A program made the translations under genes and the position numbers. A DNA stretch of 64,000 nt. Source: Bacteroidia bacterium. Lineage in GTDB: Bacteria; Bacteroidota; Bacteroidia; Chitinophagales; UBA2359. The DNA lies in assembly GCA_030427245.1 (NCBI GenBank), contig JAUHXA010000025.1, forward strand, positions 1 through 64,000, in the 5' to 3' direction. Positions 22,297 through 29,387 of the stretch are shown here, one piece after another. The notes under the pieces are model-generated. The model was not told the DNA's origin. It did not search any database and saw nothing but the letters and a program-made list of their open reading frames with translations. Position 1 is the stretch's first letter, and every line of letters begins with the position of its first letter.

Positions 22297-22662
22297 CTAC
22301 ACCTTAATCGTCCCATCCCGATAAAAATCCAAAAACCGATTCAGCAAACTTTCAATCACTTCCACCTCCAAATCCTCATTTGGATTCACCCTCAAAATTT
22401 TCATCCTCGACCGATTCCCCTGCTCCAAAAACGGATGCTCAATTCTATTTCCCTCCACAATTCCAATATAAGGCTCCCCCGTTTTCTTGTCTGTCCTCAA
22501 ATAGCAAAACATCTTTCCTTTGTAGCAAAAAACAGGCATTCGCCATTTCCAAGTCTCCTTAACATTGTCATCCAAATCAAGTAGCATGGACTTCAATGCC
22601 AACAAACAACCCTTTGCAGGTTCTTCTTGACAAGCGTAAAATTGGTCGATTGGTGTTAACAT
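22297..22662 (-). CDS. DUF1801-type small protein
   Basis: The 121-residue protein has the pattern of the DUF1801/YdhG-like family: an N-terminal helix that starts with the Asp-Gln-Phe motif (IDQFYACQEEPAKGCLLALKS), the core VKETWKWRMPVFCYKGKMFC and a later IGIVEGNRIEHPFL. Members are small single-domain proteins with no settled biochemical role. It stands on the minus strand with 76 bases to the next gene downstream and 132 bases to the one upstream, and no clear operon link. The start ATG is the only reasonable one. Confidence 0.75.
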   Translation of the reverse strand: MLTPIDQFYACQEEPAKGCLLALKSMLLDLDDNVKETWKWRMPVFCYKGKMFCYLRTDKKTGEPYIGIVEGNRIEHPFLEQGNRSRMKILRVNPNEDLEVEVIESLLNRFLDFYRDGTIKV

Positions 22663-22794
22663 AGAATTATTATAGGTTATAGGTATCGAATATATCGTTA
22701 TAAAGTGCTGAATATAAATAATGAAATTTTGGTATAAACTATCCGATATCTTTCTAATAAACTTAAAAATCCTTATTCCTCACAAATAAAAGAC

Positions 22795-23253
22795 TTAGCT
22801 CAATGCAATAAAAATATCCACTTCCGCATTCGTTGGATTCTGCGCCTTCTTACCAAAAACTTCAAAATCAGCCGTATAAGCCCGCTTCAAATCCATACCC
22901 CATATTTCCGTCCACTTATTATAAATCAATCCTTTGGTCAAATCTCCCTTTGCAGTCATTTTACAGTAATCACCTCCTTCAAAAGAAAAGCCCACCAAAC
23001 CCTCTGGAATATCCTGTAAACTCTCTACTCGACAACCCAATAAAGCAGTGTAAGGTTTTGTGAAATCACTTTCGTACTCTGTATAAATCGAGTAAATCGA
23101 ATCGTCTATTTTGTTTGGAATCTTAGCAAGTATTTCTTCCGACATAAAACGCCCCCACAATGCAGGTATATCCTGACCTGCTTGACCGTTTTCATTTGTC
23201 GTTCTAACCGAAATACCGATGATGTTGAAAGCCTCTAACTGTGCGTTTTCCAT
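22795..23253 (-). CDS. GyrI-like / effector-binding domain protein
   Basis: I start at the internal ATG at 23253 (MENAQLEAF), giving 152 residues; the 22 residues before it in the open frame are Lys/Phe-rich and unlike the family. The protein matches stand-alone effector-binding (GyrI-like, AraC-effector) domains: IIGISVRTTNENGQA, then IPALWGRFMSEEI, the Y-rich strand SIYSIYTEYESDF, and GDYCKMTAKGD. Such domains bind small molecules or proteins. It is 90 bases downstream of a YafY-type regulator on the same strand, a pairing often seen, which suggests that the regulator controls it or that the two work together. Confidence 0.75.
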   Translation of the reverse strand: MENAQLEAFNIIGISVRTTNENGQAGQDIPALWGRFMSEEILAKIPNKIDDSIYSIYTEYESDFTKPYTALLGCRVESLQDIPEGLVGFSFEGGDYCKMTAKGDLTKGLIYNKWTEIWGMDLKRAYTADFEVFGKKAQNPTNAEVDIFIALS

Positions 23254-23343
23254 TGGATTATTTTTTTTGTTTTTGAAAAAAATAGACAATAGAAGTTTTA
23301 AAAACTTCCGTTGTCTCACTTCTGCTGCAAAAATAAGGGTACA

Positions 23344-24072
23344 CTATGACATGGGTATGTCAGGGGTGTTTTGAGATTTTTGGCGGCATTGCTCAAAATA
23401 TTCTTGCAAAGTCATTGGGTGAGGCTCAAAGTGTTGATTTTGAACGGACAATTTATGAATACGGTCAATTCGAAAAGCTCTAAAATCTTTTCTCAAACGA
23501 CAAAAAGCAATCAACAACCAATTGTCTTGTGTACTGTAAAGCGCAAAAGGCTCGATACTGCGTTCGCTGAGTTCGTTTTGAAGGGAATGATAGGTGATTT
23601 TGATGAGATTGAAGTTGGTAATTGCAGATTGAAGTGGCATCAAATAGGTACTCGTTTTTTCATTCTCCAGATTGTTGCGGAATACGATTCTTTGCGAAAG
23701 CAAATGCGCCTTGTCTTTCTGTCCATATTTCAGAACCGATTTTATTTTGGTAATCGCACTTTTGTAGTGTTCGATAAACGATTCGTCTTTGTTTTTGAGA
23801 ATCAACTGTTCGGCAGTAATCAAGGCATTTGCTTCTGATTCCGAAAACATGATGGGCGGCAAATTGAAGCCTTGCATAAGCGTATATCCTCTGCCTTCTT
23901 CGGTCACAATCGGAACGCCCGATTTTTCGAGTGTGCGAATATCTCGGTAGACCGTTCGGATGCTGACACCGTGTTTTTCCGCCATTTCTTTGGCGGTCAA
24001 CAGGCGTTTCGATTGCAGTTGGGTCAATATGGAAGTCAATCTTGATAGCCTTGGTTTTTCTTTGTTGGTCAT
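23344..24072 (-). CDS. YafY-family HTH/WYL-domain transcriptional regulator
   Basis: I start at 24072 (MTNKEKPRLSRL, 242 residues), since the earlier residues of the frame are hydrophobic and untypical. The N-terminus is a winged HTH of the HTH_11 type (LTAKEMAEKHGVSIRTVYRD at residues 25-44), followed by a linker and a WYL domain (residues about 130-225) that includes YSTQDNWLLIAFCRLRKDFR and FRIDRI. WYL domains bind ligands such as nucleic acid or cyclic nucleotides. It is followed by the GyrI-like gene and preceded, 41 bases upstream on the same strand, by the helicase-wHTH-PLD operon. WYL proteins often regulate defence loci, so a link to that operon is possible but unproven. Confidence 0.85.
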   Translation of the reverse strand: MTNKEKPRLSRLTSILTQLQSKRLLTAKEMAEKHGVSIRTVYRDIRTLEKSGVPIVTEEGRGYTLMQGFNLPPIMFSESEANALITAEQLILKNKDESFIEHYKSAITKIKSVLKYGQKDKAHLLSQRIVFRNNLENEKTSTYLMPLQSAITNFNLIKITYHSLQNELSERSIEPFALYSTQDNWLLIAFCRLRKDFRAFRIDRIHKLSVQNQHFEPHPMTLQEYFEQCRQKSQNTPDIPMS

Positions 24073-24113
24073 TTTTAGAACTATTACTACTTTAGCAATC
24101 ACCTCTTATTTAC

Positions 24114-25616
24114 CTATACTTTCAATGCAAAGATTGGTAGTGTCACATAATCTCCCAACTCTAATAAATCATCAAATCGTACTCCTTCCATTAAAAATAT
24201 CCCCTGTTTTTTGATTTTTTGAGAGGCTTTATTTTTTTTGGATGATGCCTCAATTTCATACTCTCCCCAAAATACATTTGTTGCCAATTCTTTTTCGCTC
24301 AATAGAAAATCAATATCCACTTCTTCCAAATCCAATGTCAGCTCAAAGTGATAGTTTTTAATTTTTTCTTTATCAAAAGCATCATTCTTAGACCATTTTT
24401 GTATCACTTCATTAAGATTTTTAGGCTTCAAGGTCAGCCTCTCAACTTTTTTACCTTCAATTGGCTGCATTCTCAATCCTTTATCTGTCATCAAAAACCA
24501 ATTGATAGGCAGATTCATCAAACCAATATTGGCTTGAATGAAATGAGAAAAAGAGTGTTGCCATCTTTCAATGATACTATTCAAACCTTCAATATCCTTT
24601 CCCTCCAATTTCAAACCTACCTCCACACCTTCATCCATTCCTTGTTTTTCAAAATTCGCCGTAAAAATTGCCCCCTCTCTATCATCCACAAGGATGAACT
24701 TAGCGTGCAATAAATCATGGGTGTAGATTTTTGCCCCTGCTTTCACCAATTTTTCCAATTGCCCTATAATAGTTTTTGGGCGATTCGGAGCAAAAACGAT
24801 TACCTTTATTCCCATTTCACACTTCTTCTTCAATACCTGTCCCAGCTCATGGTTTATATCAAAGCCAAAACTTGAAATAACAATCTTCGACTGAGCAGTT
24901 TGAAGTAATTCCAAAATATGTGCTCGAATAGTTCTCTGATTAGCAGCACTTGAGGTTTGTAAAAGATATTCCAAATTGGGTATTTGAAAACGATTGACTG
25001 CTTTCACTTTGGTAAACTGAGTCTTCATAGATTGTTCATCAGTCGTTGCTTCCCAAAAATGCCAAACAAAAACCTTGAATAGCTCCAATATTTCCTTCGG
25101 CTTCAAAACTGCCACTATCTCGGGATTTTTATTCAGTGCATTTTGGGTAAAATTACAAGTCGCTAAAAAGCCTTTTCCATTACTATTTTTAGGGTCTATC
25201 AATAGATATTTAGCATGAATATCATCTGCACAACGCACCAAAGCCTTGTTTCTCATTTTGTTGTTCAGTAAATCTTTGAAGTTTGCAACAGCCTCTTTTT
25301 CATAATCCCTCTCGTAATAATATTCCTGCGAAATTCGAACCGTTGAAGTCAATACAAAAATTTTAACTCCTCGCTCCATTGCACGTTCCAACGCCCTTGT
25401 GACTTTACCCTCTTGAAAAATAAAAGAGGCAAAACAAATAAGTTCTCTTGCTTCATTTATTGCAGTTACCAAGAAATCCACCAAGTGTTTTCCACTTTCG
25501 ATAAACCTACCTTGGGTTTGAGGGTTTGGAAGCCAAGTTTTTCCTGTTGGTAAAAAAGCCAAATCTATTATAGCATCAGACTGCAATAAGATTGAATCAG
25601 TTATCTTTTTCATCAT
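24114..25616 (-). CDS. Phospholipase D-family protein with two HKD motifs (candidate nuclease)
   Basis: The 500-residue protein has two HKD active-site motifs: HAKYLLIDPKNSNGKG followed by TCNFTQNAL (near residue 135) and HAKFILVDDREG followed by FTANFEKQG (near residue 305). Both keep His, Lys and Asp, so one complete PLD active site can form in a single chain. There is no signal peptide or membrane segment, which favours a cytoplasmic nuclease or phosphodiesterase over a lipase. The last 150 residues (SEKELATNVFWGEYEIEAS and on) look like a separate beta-rich domain. It is the third gene of a tight operon, 10 bases after the winged-helix gene. Substrate is not known; the helicase partner suggests DNA or RNA. 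Confidence 0.85.
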   Translation of the reverse strand: MMKKITDSILLQSDAIIDLAFLPTGKTWLPNPQTQGRFIESGKHLVDFLVTAINEARELICFASFIFQEGKVTRALERAMERGVKIFVLTSTVRISQEYYYERDYEKEAVANFKDLLNNKMRNKALVRCADDIHAKYLLIDPKNSNGKGFLATCNFTQNALNKNPEIVAVLKPKEILELFKVFVWHFWEATTDEQSMKTQFTKVKAVNRFQIPNLEYLLQTSSAANQRTIRAHILELLQTAQSKIVISSFGFDINHELGQVLKKKCEMGIKVIVFAPNRPKTIIGQLEKLVKAGAKIYTHDLLHAKFILVDDREGAIFTANFEKQGMDEGVEVGLKLEGKDIEGLNSIIERWQHSFSHFIQANIGLMNLPINWFLMTDKGLRMQPIEGKKVERLTLKPKNLNEVIQKWSKNDAFDKEKIKNYHFELTLDLEEVDIDFLLSEKELATNVFWGEYEIEASSKKNKASQKIKKQGIFLMEGVRFDDLLELGDYVTLPIFALKV

Positions 25617-25626
25617 TTATTCTCAT

Positions 25627-26706
25627 TCAATAAGTCAGTAATTGAGGCGCTTGTAATTTCATCAGGGTATAAAAATAATTATCCCCATTGTTTTCAAGAT
25701 AATGATTCATCTCCAATAGGGGCAAATCATCTAATTCCCAATAAGGTTCAAATTTCGTTCTTATCTTTTCGTCTAAAACCTTGAATTGAGGTTCTTCAAA
25801 AATATATTCACTTAGATTCCTGTGCATCCAAGCCAAACGCCATTTTTCCGCATCTTCCTTAGTACTCGGCTGAAAAACAATATTCTCTAAAGAGATAGAA
25901 TTGAAGGAAACTTCACCGATTTGAGGCTCTTGAAGTTTCACTTTTCGCCGAAACTGCACATTGCCGTCAAAAGAAACAAAAACGACTTTTCCATCCTCAT
26001 CATAATCCTCTTGGTATTCTTGCGTCAAAAACAACTGTTCTAAATCACTTTTTGTTGTGGATTCATTGTTTGTAAGTTTAAGCTCAAACTCCAAATCCTC
26101 TATTGAAACAGAAACATAATTCTGACTAGCCTTCACCTCCAATGTCAAATCTTCTTCTCTCAAAAACATACAAATGCTTTCACATTCATCTATTCGATAA
26201 TCACCATTTTTGAAACTCAAAATTTGCTTTTGGGGAATATCAAAATCTTTTGTTTTCTCATTAGTTGACTTGCTATTCCTTTCTACTCTCTCTTTTATCT
26301 TTACGATAGGATAAGGAAACCAAGTAATCTCATCTTTCAATACCCAAACCTCCAACTCCCCTTTCATGGATTTAAAAAACGTTTTCTGTTTAGCTGTTTC
26401 TTTACCAAAATCCGTTAACCGATATACATACGTTTTTTGGGGCAGTCTTATATATCTCTGTTTTTTAGATATTTGCTCCTCTTTTCTAAAATAACCTTGT
26501 CCAGCTAACCTATCCAAAATATTCGACCACATTCGATGATTCAAAGCTGTTCCAGAAAGACATTCCTGCGCTTCTTCAATCGTTAAACCATCATTGTTTT
26601 CGTGTGCTGATTGGAGAAGAGCCGCAAATATGGGATTGTCTTCTTTCCGCTGATAAGTAGCGATTACACGAATTTTTTGTATGCTTACCTTAGTACTTAG
26701 TTTCAT
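25627..26706 (-). CDS. Winged-helix protein of unknown function in helicase-PLD operon
   Basis: I do not recognise the family. The 359-residue protein starts with a likely winged helix (residues about 10-100: IRVIATYQRKEDNPIFAALLQ, an EEAQECLSG helix, ILDRLAGQGYFRKEE and the wing YVYRLTDFGKE). The middle and C-terminal parts are acidic and beta-rich, with no catalytic motif that I can see, ending in a helical region (WRLAWMHRNLSEYIFEEPQF). Its start overlaps the helicase stop (ATGA, 26703-26706) and its stop is 10 bases before the PLD gene. Such coupling implies a complex or shared pathway. It could bind DNA or sense a foreign feature for the helicase and nuclease. Confidence 0.7.
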   Translation of the reverse strand: MKLSTKVSIQKIRVIATYQRKEDNPIFAALLQSAHENNDGLTIEEAQECLSGTALNHRMWSNILDRLAGQGYFRKEEQISKKQRYIRLPQKTYVYRLTDFGKETAKQKTFFKSMKGELEVWVLKDEITWFPYPIVKIKERVERNSKSTNEKTKDFDIPQKQILSFKNGDYRIDECESICMFLREEDLTLEVKASQNYVSVSIEDLEFELKLTNNESTTKSDLEQLFLTQEYQEDYDEDGKVVFVSFDGNVQFRRKVKLQEPQIGEVSFNSISLENIVFQPSTKEDAEKWRLAWMHRNLSEYIFEEPQFKVLDEKIRTKFEPYWELDDLPLLEMNHYLENNGDNYFYTLMKLQAPQLLTY

Positions 26707-29387
26707 ATTCTTCTATTCTTAGCAATACGTTTTGAGTGAGTTGTACGAGCAGAAGATTTCCGAACATCAAATTGAGCCAAGCCCGTCAAAGCTTTAGAAA
26801 TATTTTTATCTCCAAAAAACTTATGATTTCCAAACAAGACCAACTTGTACTTCGCCCGTGTCAGTGCAACATTCAAACGATTAGGGCTTTTGTAAAAAGC
26901 ATTGTAACTCGCTTTGGTAAAGGACAATAACACCATATCCGCTTCGTCTCCCTGAAATCTATCCACTGTACACAATACGACCTTTACACTTCCAAAATCA
27001 AAATTTTTAATCGGTTTGTACCTATGTATTGTTTCTTGCCGAAACAATCGCTGTAACTCTCTCCGCATCAAGGATTCTTGGTCTCGGTAAAAACACAAAA
27101 CAGCCACTTCAAAGGGTTCATTTTTCTCTTTTGGGGGTGCTCCTTTTGACCACTCTAAAAAATCTTTCAATTCTCCAATCATTTGTTTTGCTTCTTTCAA
27201 ATTGGAGTTCAAACGTCTTTTTTTTAATCTATCATATTTTATCTTCTCAGTATTAGTAACCCAAATAACTGCATCCTCCCCCTGTTTGTAAGTACCTAAA
27301 GGATTTATACGGTCTATTACAGTATTGGCTGTTTCTAAATTTCCTTCATAAAAATGATTCCGTGAAGTTTGAGCAATCAAATCATTCATTCGATGCTGAT
27401 ACGAAAGTGAAGTAAACTTATACTTTTTAGCTTTTGCAGGAAAACCGTCGTATAAAATTCGGTCAAGTTTTCGTCCTTGATGAAGTGTTTCCCCCAAGCC
27501 ATTTTGAAGCAATTCCAAAATAGAAGGCATTGTAATCCGTTTGATGCGCTCTATTTCTTCTTTGAGTGTTCTCTCAAATTTTGCATTGACAACTTTGTTG
27601 TAAGAAGTCAAAAAATCTATGTCTTTTTTCAAATGTTCCCCCAATTCAGGAGAAGCACGAAAAGCATAATGTTGACTCAATCGGTGCGCCAATTCTCTTT
27701 CCCAAGTATCTATGTCTTTTGCAGGGCGATTAAAAGAAGTATTGGAGTAATATGCTTGAACTCGTTGAAATTCACCATGCAAAACCCCATCAAAAACCTC
27801 AGCTTTAACATACACACAACGGTTCAAAATATCTCGATTTTTTTTGTTATTCCTCGCCAAAACAATATCGGCAGCATTCAAAGCCAATATTTCATCTGGC
27901 GTTTCGCTGAAATGCCCATTTAAGCTAAACACTTCCAAATCTTTTCCAAAAACCTCTTTTGCCTTGCTCTCTTCAAAATCATTGGAAAGCAAAATCTTCA
28001 AATAATTTTGAGCTACTCTTTTAGGAGTGTATTGACTCGCTTTCCAAACAGGAAAGACAATCTGCAAATGTTTTTTCTCTTTTTCCTCCAATAATTTACT
28101 CAGTGCCAACTCTACATATTCTCCTTCTACATAAGGTGACAATTGCTGAACATCACCTACCAAAATCCATTTTTTGGCATACAAAGCGGGCACCAAAAAC
28201 TCTTGAAATGTCACCTTCGATGCTTCATCTACAATCATAACATCAAAAGGAGTGTCAATCGTACTCCTCCTAATTTGTGGATGTTGTAAAATCCCAATCA
28301 TCGTACCACACACCAAGTTAGAAGCCTCTAAAATAGAGGTTTCAAAAAACCTTGGATAAGATTCTTTCTTCAATGCCTTCAACAATACTTCTTGGCTTTC
28401 GGTGCGATTCGGGGAATTTTGTAGATGGATTTTCATCTGTTTTGCCTTTGTGACAACCAATTCCTGCAAACGATAAGCTTCCACCTCTTTGTAACGAATT
28501 TGCCCTTTATCATTTGCAATGCGAACGGGGGCAACCACATCCTGACATTTATCCTCGTAAGAAGTCAAAATTCGCTTCAATACATTGTCCACTGCAACGT
28601 GCGTAGAAGAAACCAATAAAATCCGCTTTCCCAGCATACACAATTGAATCACCAGTTCAATAATACTCGTTGTCTTTCCAGAGCCAGGCGGTCCCTCCAA
28701 AAGTGCAAAATCTGCCGTAGTCAATGCTTTTTTGACAAACTCTCTTTGTTCCGTAGTTCCATTGCGAGTTTCATCAGTCAATACGCTCCAGTCACCTTCA
28801 TCACGAAGAATAGACTCATCATAATAATAGCAATCAACATCATCTAATCTTTCATCACGAGGGTCTTTGAATAATTTGAGAAGAGGCAAATGTTCTCGCA
28901 AAGGCTTGTTCTGCAATCGCTCAATTGCCTGTATTTGCTTGCTTATTTGATACTCATCTTGACGTACATAAAGCGTTACCTCCTTCTTCAAATCTTCGTC
29001 AAAATAAAGCTGTCTTTCTTCTCCATTTCTATCTTGAATTACCAAGCGATTGTCACTATGCTTCTCGCCTTTTTGCCGAATACGGGTTATATACAAATGC
29101 TTAACCTCGGTATCAAAAAGCAATTTTTCTATTGCTTCTATTTGTTCATTGTCATCTCTTATTTCATACTTCAAAAACTCATTATCGCTATCTTTTTCCA
29201 TACTTCCCCATTTTCTATTCACACGTTGTAGCTTGACAGGAAGAACAGACAATTCTTTGAGTTTTGCTTCGATATCTTTAAGAAAAGCCCGATAATTCTT
29301 CAAATCATGATTGACATTCTTAAAGACAATATAAGGGCGATTCCCCATACTGTCCTTCAAGTTTTCTTTGTAAATATTATCATTCAT
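26703..29387 (-). CDS. Superfamily 1 helicase (UPF1/DNA2-like, COG1112-type)
   Basis: The 894-residue protein has an N-terminal region of about 225 residues with no clear family, then an SF1 helicase core: Walker A EGPPGSGKTTSIIEL (near residue 237), motif II VDEAS in MIVDEASKVTF (near 385), motif III GDVQQLSPYV, and the C-terminal motifs DRFQGDEADMVLLSFTK and RLNVALTRAKYKLVLFGN (near 820-870). The VDEAS box and the VALTRAK box are typical of UPF1-like, 5'-3' RNA/DNA helicases. It is the first gene of a three-gene operon with a winged-helix protein and a PLD protein. The combination recalls Mokosh defence systems, which join this helicase type with a PLD nuclease, but the middle gene is extra. 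Confidence 0.9.
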   Translation of the reverse strand: MNDNIYKENLKDSMGNRPYIVFKNVNHDLKNYRAFLKDIEAKLKELSVLPVKLQRVNRKWGSMEKDSDNEFLKYEIRDDNEQIEAIEKLLFDTEVKHLYITRIRQKGEKHSDNRLVIQDRNGEERQLYFDEDLKKEVTLYVRQDEYQISKQIQAIERLQNKPLREHLPLLKLFKDPRDERLDDVDCYYYDESILRDEGDWSVLTDETRNGTTEQREFVKKALTTADFALLEGPPGSGKTTSIIELVIQLCMLGKRILLVSSTHVAVDNVLKRILTSYEDKCQDVVAPVRIANDKGQIRYKEVEAYRLQELVVTKAKQMKIHLQNSPNRTESQEVLLKALKKESYPRFFETSILEASNLVCGTMIGILQHPQIRRSTIDTPFDVMIVDEASKVTFQEFLVPALYAKKWILVGDVQQLSPYVEGEYVELALSKLLEEKEKKHLQIVFPVWKASQYTPKRVAQNYLKILLSNDFEESKAKEVFGKDLEVFSLNGHFSETPDEILALNAADIVLARNNKKNRDILNRCVYVKAEVFDGVLHGEFQRVQAYYSNTSFNRPAKDIDTWERELAHRLSQHYAFRASPELGEHLKKDIDFLTSYNKVVNAKFERTLKEEIERIKRITMPSILELLQNGLGETLHQGRKLDRILYDGFPAKAKKYKFTSLSYQHRMNDLIAQTSRNHFYEGNLETANTVIDRINPLGTYKQGEDAVIWVTNTEKIKYDRLKKRRLNSNLKEAKQMIGELKDFLEWSKGAPPKEKNEPFEVAVLCFYRDQESLMRRELQRLFRQETIHRYKPIKNFDFGSVKVVLCTVDRFQGDEADMVLLSFTKASYNAFYKSPNRLNVALTRAKYKLVLFGNHKFFGDKNISKALTGLAQFDVRKSSARTTHSKRIAKNRRI

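Follow-up and report, generated by a model that had tools for sequence, protein, structure and literature searches.

Operons that pair a UPF1-like helicase with a nuclease carrying a winged helix-turn-helix (wHTH) domain are known from bacterial defence, and the wHTH has been suggested to serve as a link. According to the available portion of that account (PMC11090510), helicases of this family typically precede an elongated wHTH to which a nuclease is fused, and in CoCoNuT type III-C the wHTH is fused to two phospholipase D (PLD) domains. In the Mokosh systems, helicase and PLD are encoded by separate genes with an additional kinase in type I, whereas they are fused in type II (PMC11672841, available in part). 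The 64,000-nucleotide stretch of Bacteroidota DNA analysed here (hereafter the window) contains three adjacent genes for a superfamily 1 (SF1) helicase, a winged-helix protein and a PLD-superfamily protein with two HKD motifs. A preliminary description, made from the letters of the window alone, had proposed these genes as a candidate defence system. In this study, we found that the three genes make up a single conserved unit, in which the ATPase and PLD motifs are intact and a winged helix is present. The operon is probably a relative, not yet catalogued, of the known anti-phage helicase-nuclease systems, with a presumed role in defence.

The three genes and their products

The genes of the operon and their motifs have the following positions in the window:

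26703..29387, minus strand: SF1 helicase gene, UPF1/SMUBP2-like, 894 amino acids (open reading frame call and Pfam)
28668..28694, minus strand: Walker A motif GPPGSGKTT, helicase residues 232-240 (sequence)
25627..26706, minus strand: middle gene, 359 amino acids, winged helix and beta-rich part, proposed adaptor (open reading frame call and AlphaFold2 model)
26380..26643, minus strand: winged-helix part, middle protein residues 22-109 (AlphaFold2 model and structure matches)
24114..25616, minus strand: PLD-superfamily gene, 500 amino acids, two HKD half-sites (open reading frame call and Pfam)
25194..25217, minus strand: first HKD motif HAKYLLID, PLD protein residues 134-141 (H-x-K-x4-D in 15/15)
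24684..24707, minus strand: second HKD motif HAKFILVD, PLD protein residues 304-311 (H-x-K-x4-D in 15/15)

The arrangement agrees with that first described: the helicase and middle genes overlap by ATGA at 26703-26706, and 10 bases separate the middle gene from the PLD gene. The G+C content of the three genes (35-37%, against 39% in the window) differs too little to carry weight.

The solved-structure sequences nearest to the helicase were SMUBP-2, UPF1 and DNA2, and its Walker A motif is invariant across 8 aligned helicases of the operon type. Because the Pfam AAA_11/AAA_12 match begins only at residue ~213, about 210 N-terminal residues are left without a family, which agrees with the unassigned N-terminus noted earlier. 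The NCBIfam model for the PLuB system helicase (NF040671) also matched (E 2.6e-39), but its best stretch spans the first ATPase region only; no paper on such a system was found among the matches listed. The AlphaFold2 helicase model is most confident in an alpha/beta segment that separates the two halves of the helicase (residues ~460-548) and that by eye is seemingly absent from the helicase of genome G554 (L019). Structure matches for residues 460-548 reached only Z < 6 and the helicase model is poor, so no fold is claimed for this stretch or for the N-terminus.

The middle protein had been called a winged-helix protein of no recognised family, and both points hold. No family scored above the cut-off in Pfam or NCBIfam, no PADLOC model matched at E<=0.01, and a profile of the protein gave nothing significant against the sequences of solved structures. 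The AlphaFold2 model of the whole protein is weak (mean predicted local distance difference test score (pLDDT) 67, predicted template modelling score 0.40), and its residues 22-109 match MarR/PadR-type domains with Z of about 9-10 and root mean square deviations of mostly 2-3 Å. One weak PHROG match runs across the winged helix (E 0.0013).

Pfam PLDc_2 matches the PLD protein in two stretches, the PLD part starting at residue ~49, and both HKD motifs are intact, as previously noted. The pattern H-x-K-x4-D is present twice in each of the PLD proteins of the operon type (15/15). An export signal was not seen, as judged by eye only. The best PADLOC match was DrmC of DISARM (E 1.3e-23), a PHROG of uncharacterised function matched with E 6.8e-11, and the PLD profile returned only one weak phospholipase match from the solved-structure sequences. 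The DrmC match likens the operon to DISARM; by contrast, neither DrmA nor DrmB is found among the three window genes and their first neighbours.

Conservation and distribution of the three-gene set

The set was found at 15 loci, 11 in Bacteroidota (including G290, placed by genome search, and L032, whose phylum is unplaced) and 4 on proteobacterial plasmids. Eleven loci are fully readable, three are cut by contig ends and one, broken by insertion sequences (IS), shows no helicase. Wherever the helicase is present (14 loci), the order is helicase-middle-PLD; since it recurs in every one of them, the operon is more than a chance arrangement, and co-occurrence in other genomes, which the preliminary description had named as a check, is borne out. 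A fixed housekeeping position in all relatives, which would have spoken against a defence system, was not seen: helicase matches at E<=1e-20 were present in 3 of 60 near relatives, including the window's own genome and a long form in G306, and the neighbouring genes differ.

The rarity of the set is apparent from each of its genes. A single-sequence search of 296 genomes of the phylum with the middle gene found the window and one other genome, in which the middle gene is flanked, in the order seen in the window, by genes for a helicase (40% identical) and a double-HKD PLD protein (34%). A profile of three middle proteins matched 4 of 395 genomes of the class, the window's own included; a fifth match, in G631, was rejected as an efflux transporter frame. 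Scanning GTDB contigs for the middle gene yielded 10 loci, 5 of which are DNA already known from the genome searches. The helicase was found in 2 of 395 phylum genomes, with two candidates scored per genome. Helicase-led searches gave seven genomes or records, near-complete or contig-cut (the window, G290, G312, the G306 long form, Vibrio aerogenes, V. rumoiensis and Pontibrevibacter), and middle and PLD-like genes follow the helicase in 7/7; nine partial plasmid helicase matches are not counted among them.

Eight of the 12 plasmid helicase matches were inspected, the others being three from Acinetobacter and one from Streptococcus. The matches covering >80% of the helicase were those of V. 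aerogenes, V. rumoiensis and Pontibrevibacter, where three genes come after that of the helicase, for a "hypothetical protein" of 365-369 amino acids, for a PLD protein and for a sigma-54-interacting regulator. The fourth plasmid copy, from Klebsiella, was found with the Vibrio middle protein. IS21-type genes interrupt its middle gene, and IS26 lies directly upstream; middle, PLD and regulator genes are present, and no helicase match was found within the 16.6 kb read. The PLD proteins of Klebsiella and V. aerogenes are 97% identical, which suggests recent transfer, and two of the four plasmid copies are on plasmids typed conjugative. A Rhodobacter helicase match was discarded as a fragment beside IS26, and the genes that follow the distant Aliarcobacter (two) and Deinococcus helicases showed no kinship with the middle protein (hhalign <1%). 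The window middle sequence had no match in viral contigs, plasmids or phages, nor did its profile in viral contigs, the Vibrio middle protein in phages or the Vibrio DNA in E. coli genomes. The three-gene set is thus a conserved unit that is rare, patchy and without a fixed genomic place.

A longer operon at L009 (G306:C166, 5324-15456) encodes an AAA ATPase, a 1090-amino-acid UPF1-like helicase, a 530-amino-acid middle relative, a 747-amino-acid PLD-like coiled-coil protein, a 179-amino-acid protein and a radical-SAM (Fer4_12) protein. Its middle relative is distant (hhalign 92.2% with 5 sequences and 96.6% with 13), and the operon resembles a more elaborate version of the three-gene system. 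Separately, a DUF2779 gene is located near a UPF1-like helicase at L022 (5031-7156), L049 (3378-7662) and L050 (4006-10127), upstream of the helicase in two of these and downstream in one.

Comparison with Mokosh and CoCoNuT

The operon shares with Mokosh type I a UPF1-like helicase and a PLD protein in separate adjacent genes, and differs in this respect from the fused type II. The preliminary description had left the choice between a Mokosh variant and a new type; the helicase-PLD pairing stands, whereas the missing kinase part, a PLD protein built unlike MkoB and a separate helicase set speak against a plain Mokosh. We consider it unlikely that the operon is a type I Mokosh without its kinase, in which MkoB has been split into a winged-helix and a PLD part. 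Several matches do fit such a split. MkoA was the best PADLOC match of the helicase (E 8.7e-82), and the MkoB model aligned with both HKD halves of the PLD protein (profile positions 308-591, E 2.7e-10), by which some members of the MkoB family may have two halves. For comparison, 14 MkoB-type proteins were gathered (13 plasmid-borne and one of G001), all encoded immediately downstream of a kinase or AAA-helicase gene; 9 of 12 MkoB-like matches were inspected, and a further 4 proteins came from among the 40 listed of 116 records. The 10 that were scanned all matched MkoB models (E 1.3e-24 to 1.7e-122). MkoB-type proteins match from residue ~20-30, and their PLD part comes only after some 280-300 residues, a length close to that of the middle protein. 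When aligned with the winged helix of the middle protein, the MkoB N-termini are colinear and correctly placed.

That alignment, however, is not significant (hhalign probability 4-8%), and PADLOC gave no match to the middle protein at the above threshold; as a separate gene, it does not fit the Mokosh types, as was first pointed out. The PLD part of the window protein, from residue ~49, lacks the MkoB N-terminal part, and DrmC is a better match to it than MkoB. Among the MkoB-type proteins, H-x-K-x4-D occurs once in 11 and is absent from 3, so that two motifs are present in 0/14 as against all of the operon type, although taking a single HKD motif as defining MkoB is our own reading. No kinase domain was found on the window helicase in Pfam at E<=0.1, unlike the serine/threonine kinase of type I. 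On the MkoA profile, its best-matching stretch begins at position 496 (protein residue 71); the MkoA of G001 covers positions 16-1096 of 1112. In a tree made by a quick method from 27 helicases (including 7 MkoA and 3 MkoC-family members, with several long end branches), 12 helicases of the operon type and the long form made up one set (support 99, starred), and the MkoA and MkoC-family helicases fell outside it. The operon may work like a Mokosh pair but lacks defining features of that type. A Mokosh-type locus of another build was noted in Agrobacterium (L085, 2650-8346): a kinase-helicase gene and a gene for an MkoB-type protein without an HKD motif, which is followed and overlapped by a protein phosphatase 2C gene.

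The closest published idea is the pair of UPF1-like helicase and wHTH-nuclease, CnuH/CnuE, which is unfused here. As in CoCoNuT type III-C and its relatives, a UPF1-like helicase is followed by winged-helix and double-PLD parts; however, these parts are fused in type III-C and separate genes here. RtcR homologues are frequent next to CoCoNuT type II, and an RtcR link is thus shared by some CoCoNuT types, as far as the available text of PMC11090510 goes, and 5/15 of the present loci. A further difference is that no McrB/McrC-type gene lies beside the window operon, which is flanked by hemW and a WYL gene. Kinship with CnuH/CnuE is a strong lead, likened by the description of parts and not by sequence. 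The operon is conserved, mobile and probably defensive, an apparently uncatalogued variant between Mokosh and the CnuH/CnuE theme. The three- or four-gene set was not described in the literature matches listed, and a 2020 CARF survey by Makarova and the 2022 report by Millman in which Mokosh was discovered may mention it.

Regulators, neighbourhood and proposed function

In 5 of the 15 loci (G312, V. aerogenes, V. rumoiensis, Pontibrevibacter and Klebsiella), the PLD gene is directly followed, with a gap of 1-2 bp or a 4-bp overlap, by a gene for an RtcR-like CARF-AAA-HTH (helix-turn-helix) protein. RtcR_PspF1 was the best PADLOC model in the first four, and the Klebsiella gene was assigned by annotation. 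In the other 10 loci, no such gene was seen directly after the PLD gene (the L025 contig ends 259 bp on). The RtcR-bearing loci (L045, L046, L047, L011 and L048) span two phyla, and the gene is a possible RNA-damage switch. A sigma-54-like site, TGGCAC-N5-TTG, lies 54 bp upstream of both Vibrio helicases with 2 and 1 mismatches, both with A in place of C in the -12 GC; G290 and L027 also have 2-mismatch sites, and nothing of note was seen upstream of the Pontibrevibacter and window operons. Equally good sites arose in 14 and 2 of 200 shuffles of the two Vibrio upstream regions, and these sites are not used as evidence.

The RtcR-like gene and the UPF1-like helicase would also suit a unit of RNA repair or surveillance that is induced by RNA damage and has no part in defence, and the operon resembles RtcR-controlled RNA repair operons in the former respect. 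In Salmonella, RtcR responds to tRNA fragments, which its CARF domain binds (PMC7790460); in E. coli, the CARF domain, not full-length RtcR, bound fragments, and this was insufficient for activation (PMC9650030). RtcR-like proteins unlinked to Rtc are often tied to restriction-modification (RM) systems (PMC4012209; all three sources are cited from partial text), which argues against repair. Moreover, the regulator was not seen in this position at two thirds of the loci, and the window copy has a WYL gene, not an RtcR-like one, beside the operon and thus lacks this feature of an RtcR regulon. RtcA and RtcB are not annotated near the four plasmid copies and were not searched for elsewhere. The operon is also rare and plasmid-borne, and several copies stand beside AbiP2, Wadjet or RM genes. 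A function in RNA repair instead of defence is, in our view, quite unlikely.

The middle protein could likewise be a plain transcriptional autoregulator outside the machine, as its MarR/PadR-like winged helix would allow. This is very unlikely: the winged helix covers only ~90 of 359 residues, the distant copy in the longer G306 operon accompanies its own helicase and PLD-like genes (at the higher hhalign value above), and in CnuE a wHTH is fused to nucleases (PMC11090510, available in part).

The WYL gene (23344-24102) begins 11 bases after the PLD gene (gap, 24103-24113) on the same strand, directly downstream as was first described. It is part of a cassette of WYL, Cass2/GyrI-like and DUF1801 genes (22297-24102) that is found in relatives without the operon. 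Nine WYL homologue loci were read in eight relatives (38-67% identical, six at 57-67%); a Cass2 gene adjoins WYL in 4/9, and in G314 the two are a single 409-amino-acid frame followed by DUF1801. WYL as a fourth component controlling the operon is rejected as highly improbable: despite its strand, its short gap and a WYL protein that regulates a CRISPR system (PMC4012209, available in part), it directly follows the PLD gene in the window only among the 15 loci, and no helicase, middle or PLD gene was found within the 2.7-3.7 kb read at the nine homologue loci. The window WYL regulator is probably a bystander, and the operon seems to have arrived between hemW, directly upstream of it, and the pre-existing WYL-Cass2-DUF1801 cassette. 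Repeats around the operon were only short or imperfect, and the repeat search found no insertion scar. The setting of accessory genes and relics claimed for the operon holds only in part, as hemW is its upstream neighbour.

Several other copies lie beside defence genes. AbiP2 is located 59 bp upstream of the G290 copy (E 1.3e-209), and a complete JetABCD (Wadjet) set 82 bp downstream of the L027 copy. A type II methyltransferase and restriction enzyme are near L031, a type II methyltransferase is noted near L026 and in G554, and G466 has NERD-UvrD and a HEC-05 gene; the candidate defence family PDC-M41A and a methyltransferase are near G503. By annotation, the V. aerogenes copy has cas1/cas2 at a distance of 3.5 kb, and the Pontibrevibacter copy has dndB at 8.6 kb. 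The contigs of L025 and L028 are too short to judge the neighbourhood. First neighbours matched PADLOC at E<=1e-10 in 1/7 cases upstream and 7/11 downstream (counted without Klebsiella and without a 111-amino-acid frame after the G290 copy).

Several points weigh against a defensive function. Few of the first neighbours are defence effectors (the seven downstream matches are four RtcR, WYL, an HTH protein and JetA), and the further neighbours scanned were picked for their defence-like look. Among 9 control proteins, chosen out of 22 frames in three ordinary stretches, there were 2 generic PADLOC matches. The window copy itself adjoins hemW and a host cassette; PADLOC was run there on hemW and on the first two genes downstream of the operon, and it matched WYL alone. 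The genes after L032 are not defence-like by eye, RtcR, where studied, governs RNA repair, and the AlphaFold2 model of the helicase (pLDDT 44) is not usable. Because the plain neighbour count consists mostly of regulators, membership in defence islands rests on striking single cases and not on a statistic. The proposal of a candidate defence system holds in part: it is backed by conservation, patchy and plasmid-borne occurrence and the copies beside AbiP2, Wadjet and RM genes, but the neighbour count does not prove island membership.

On this evidence, we consider it fairly probable that the operon is a mobile three-gene system acting against foreign nucleic acid. In such a system, the UPF1-like helicase would move along invader RNA or single-stranded DNA, the winged-helix middle protein would couple this motor to the nuclease, and the PLD protein, with a single active site predicted to be built from both HKD motifs of one chain, would cut the engaged nucleic acid. 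In some lineages, the RtcR-like CARF sigma-54 activator, encoded by a fourth gene, may switch the unit on as broken RNA ends accumulate. Owing to the UPF1-like kinship and the RtcR tie, RNA is favoured as the predicted target, with DNA as the alternative. We only tentatively raise the further possibility of a separate defence type made up of a helicase, a free adaptor, a double-HKD nuclease and an exchangeable regulator slot, in whose RtcR-bearing form CARF would sense broken tRNA or RNA ends made by infection and switch on an RNA-directed machine; if this were true, RNA damage itself would be the alarm.

Because the middle protein has no match above cut-off in Pfam or NCBIfam, nor in PADLOC at the threshold given, defence finders may miss it or call the operon an incomplete Mokosh. 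The operon would add an uncatalogued build to the theme of UPF1 helicase and PLD/wHTH parts known from Mokosh and the CoCoNuTs, and, since its adaptor is free-standing, the way in which motor and nuclease are coupled could be tested on the individual proteins. That an RNA-damage sensor recurs beside the operon hints at a possible means of activating systems of this sort.

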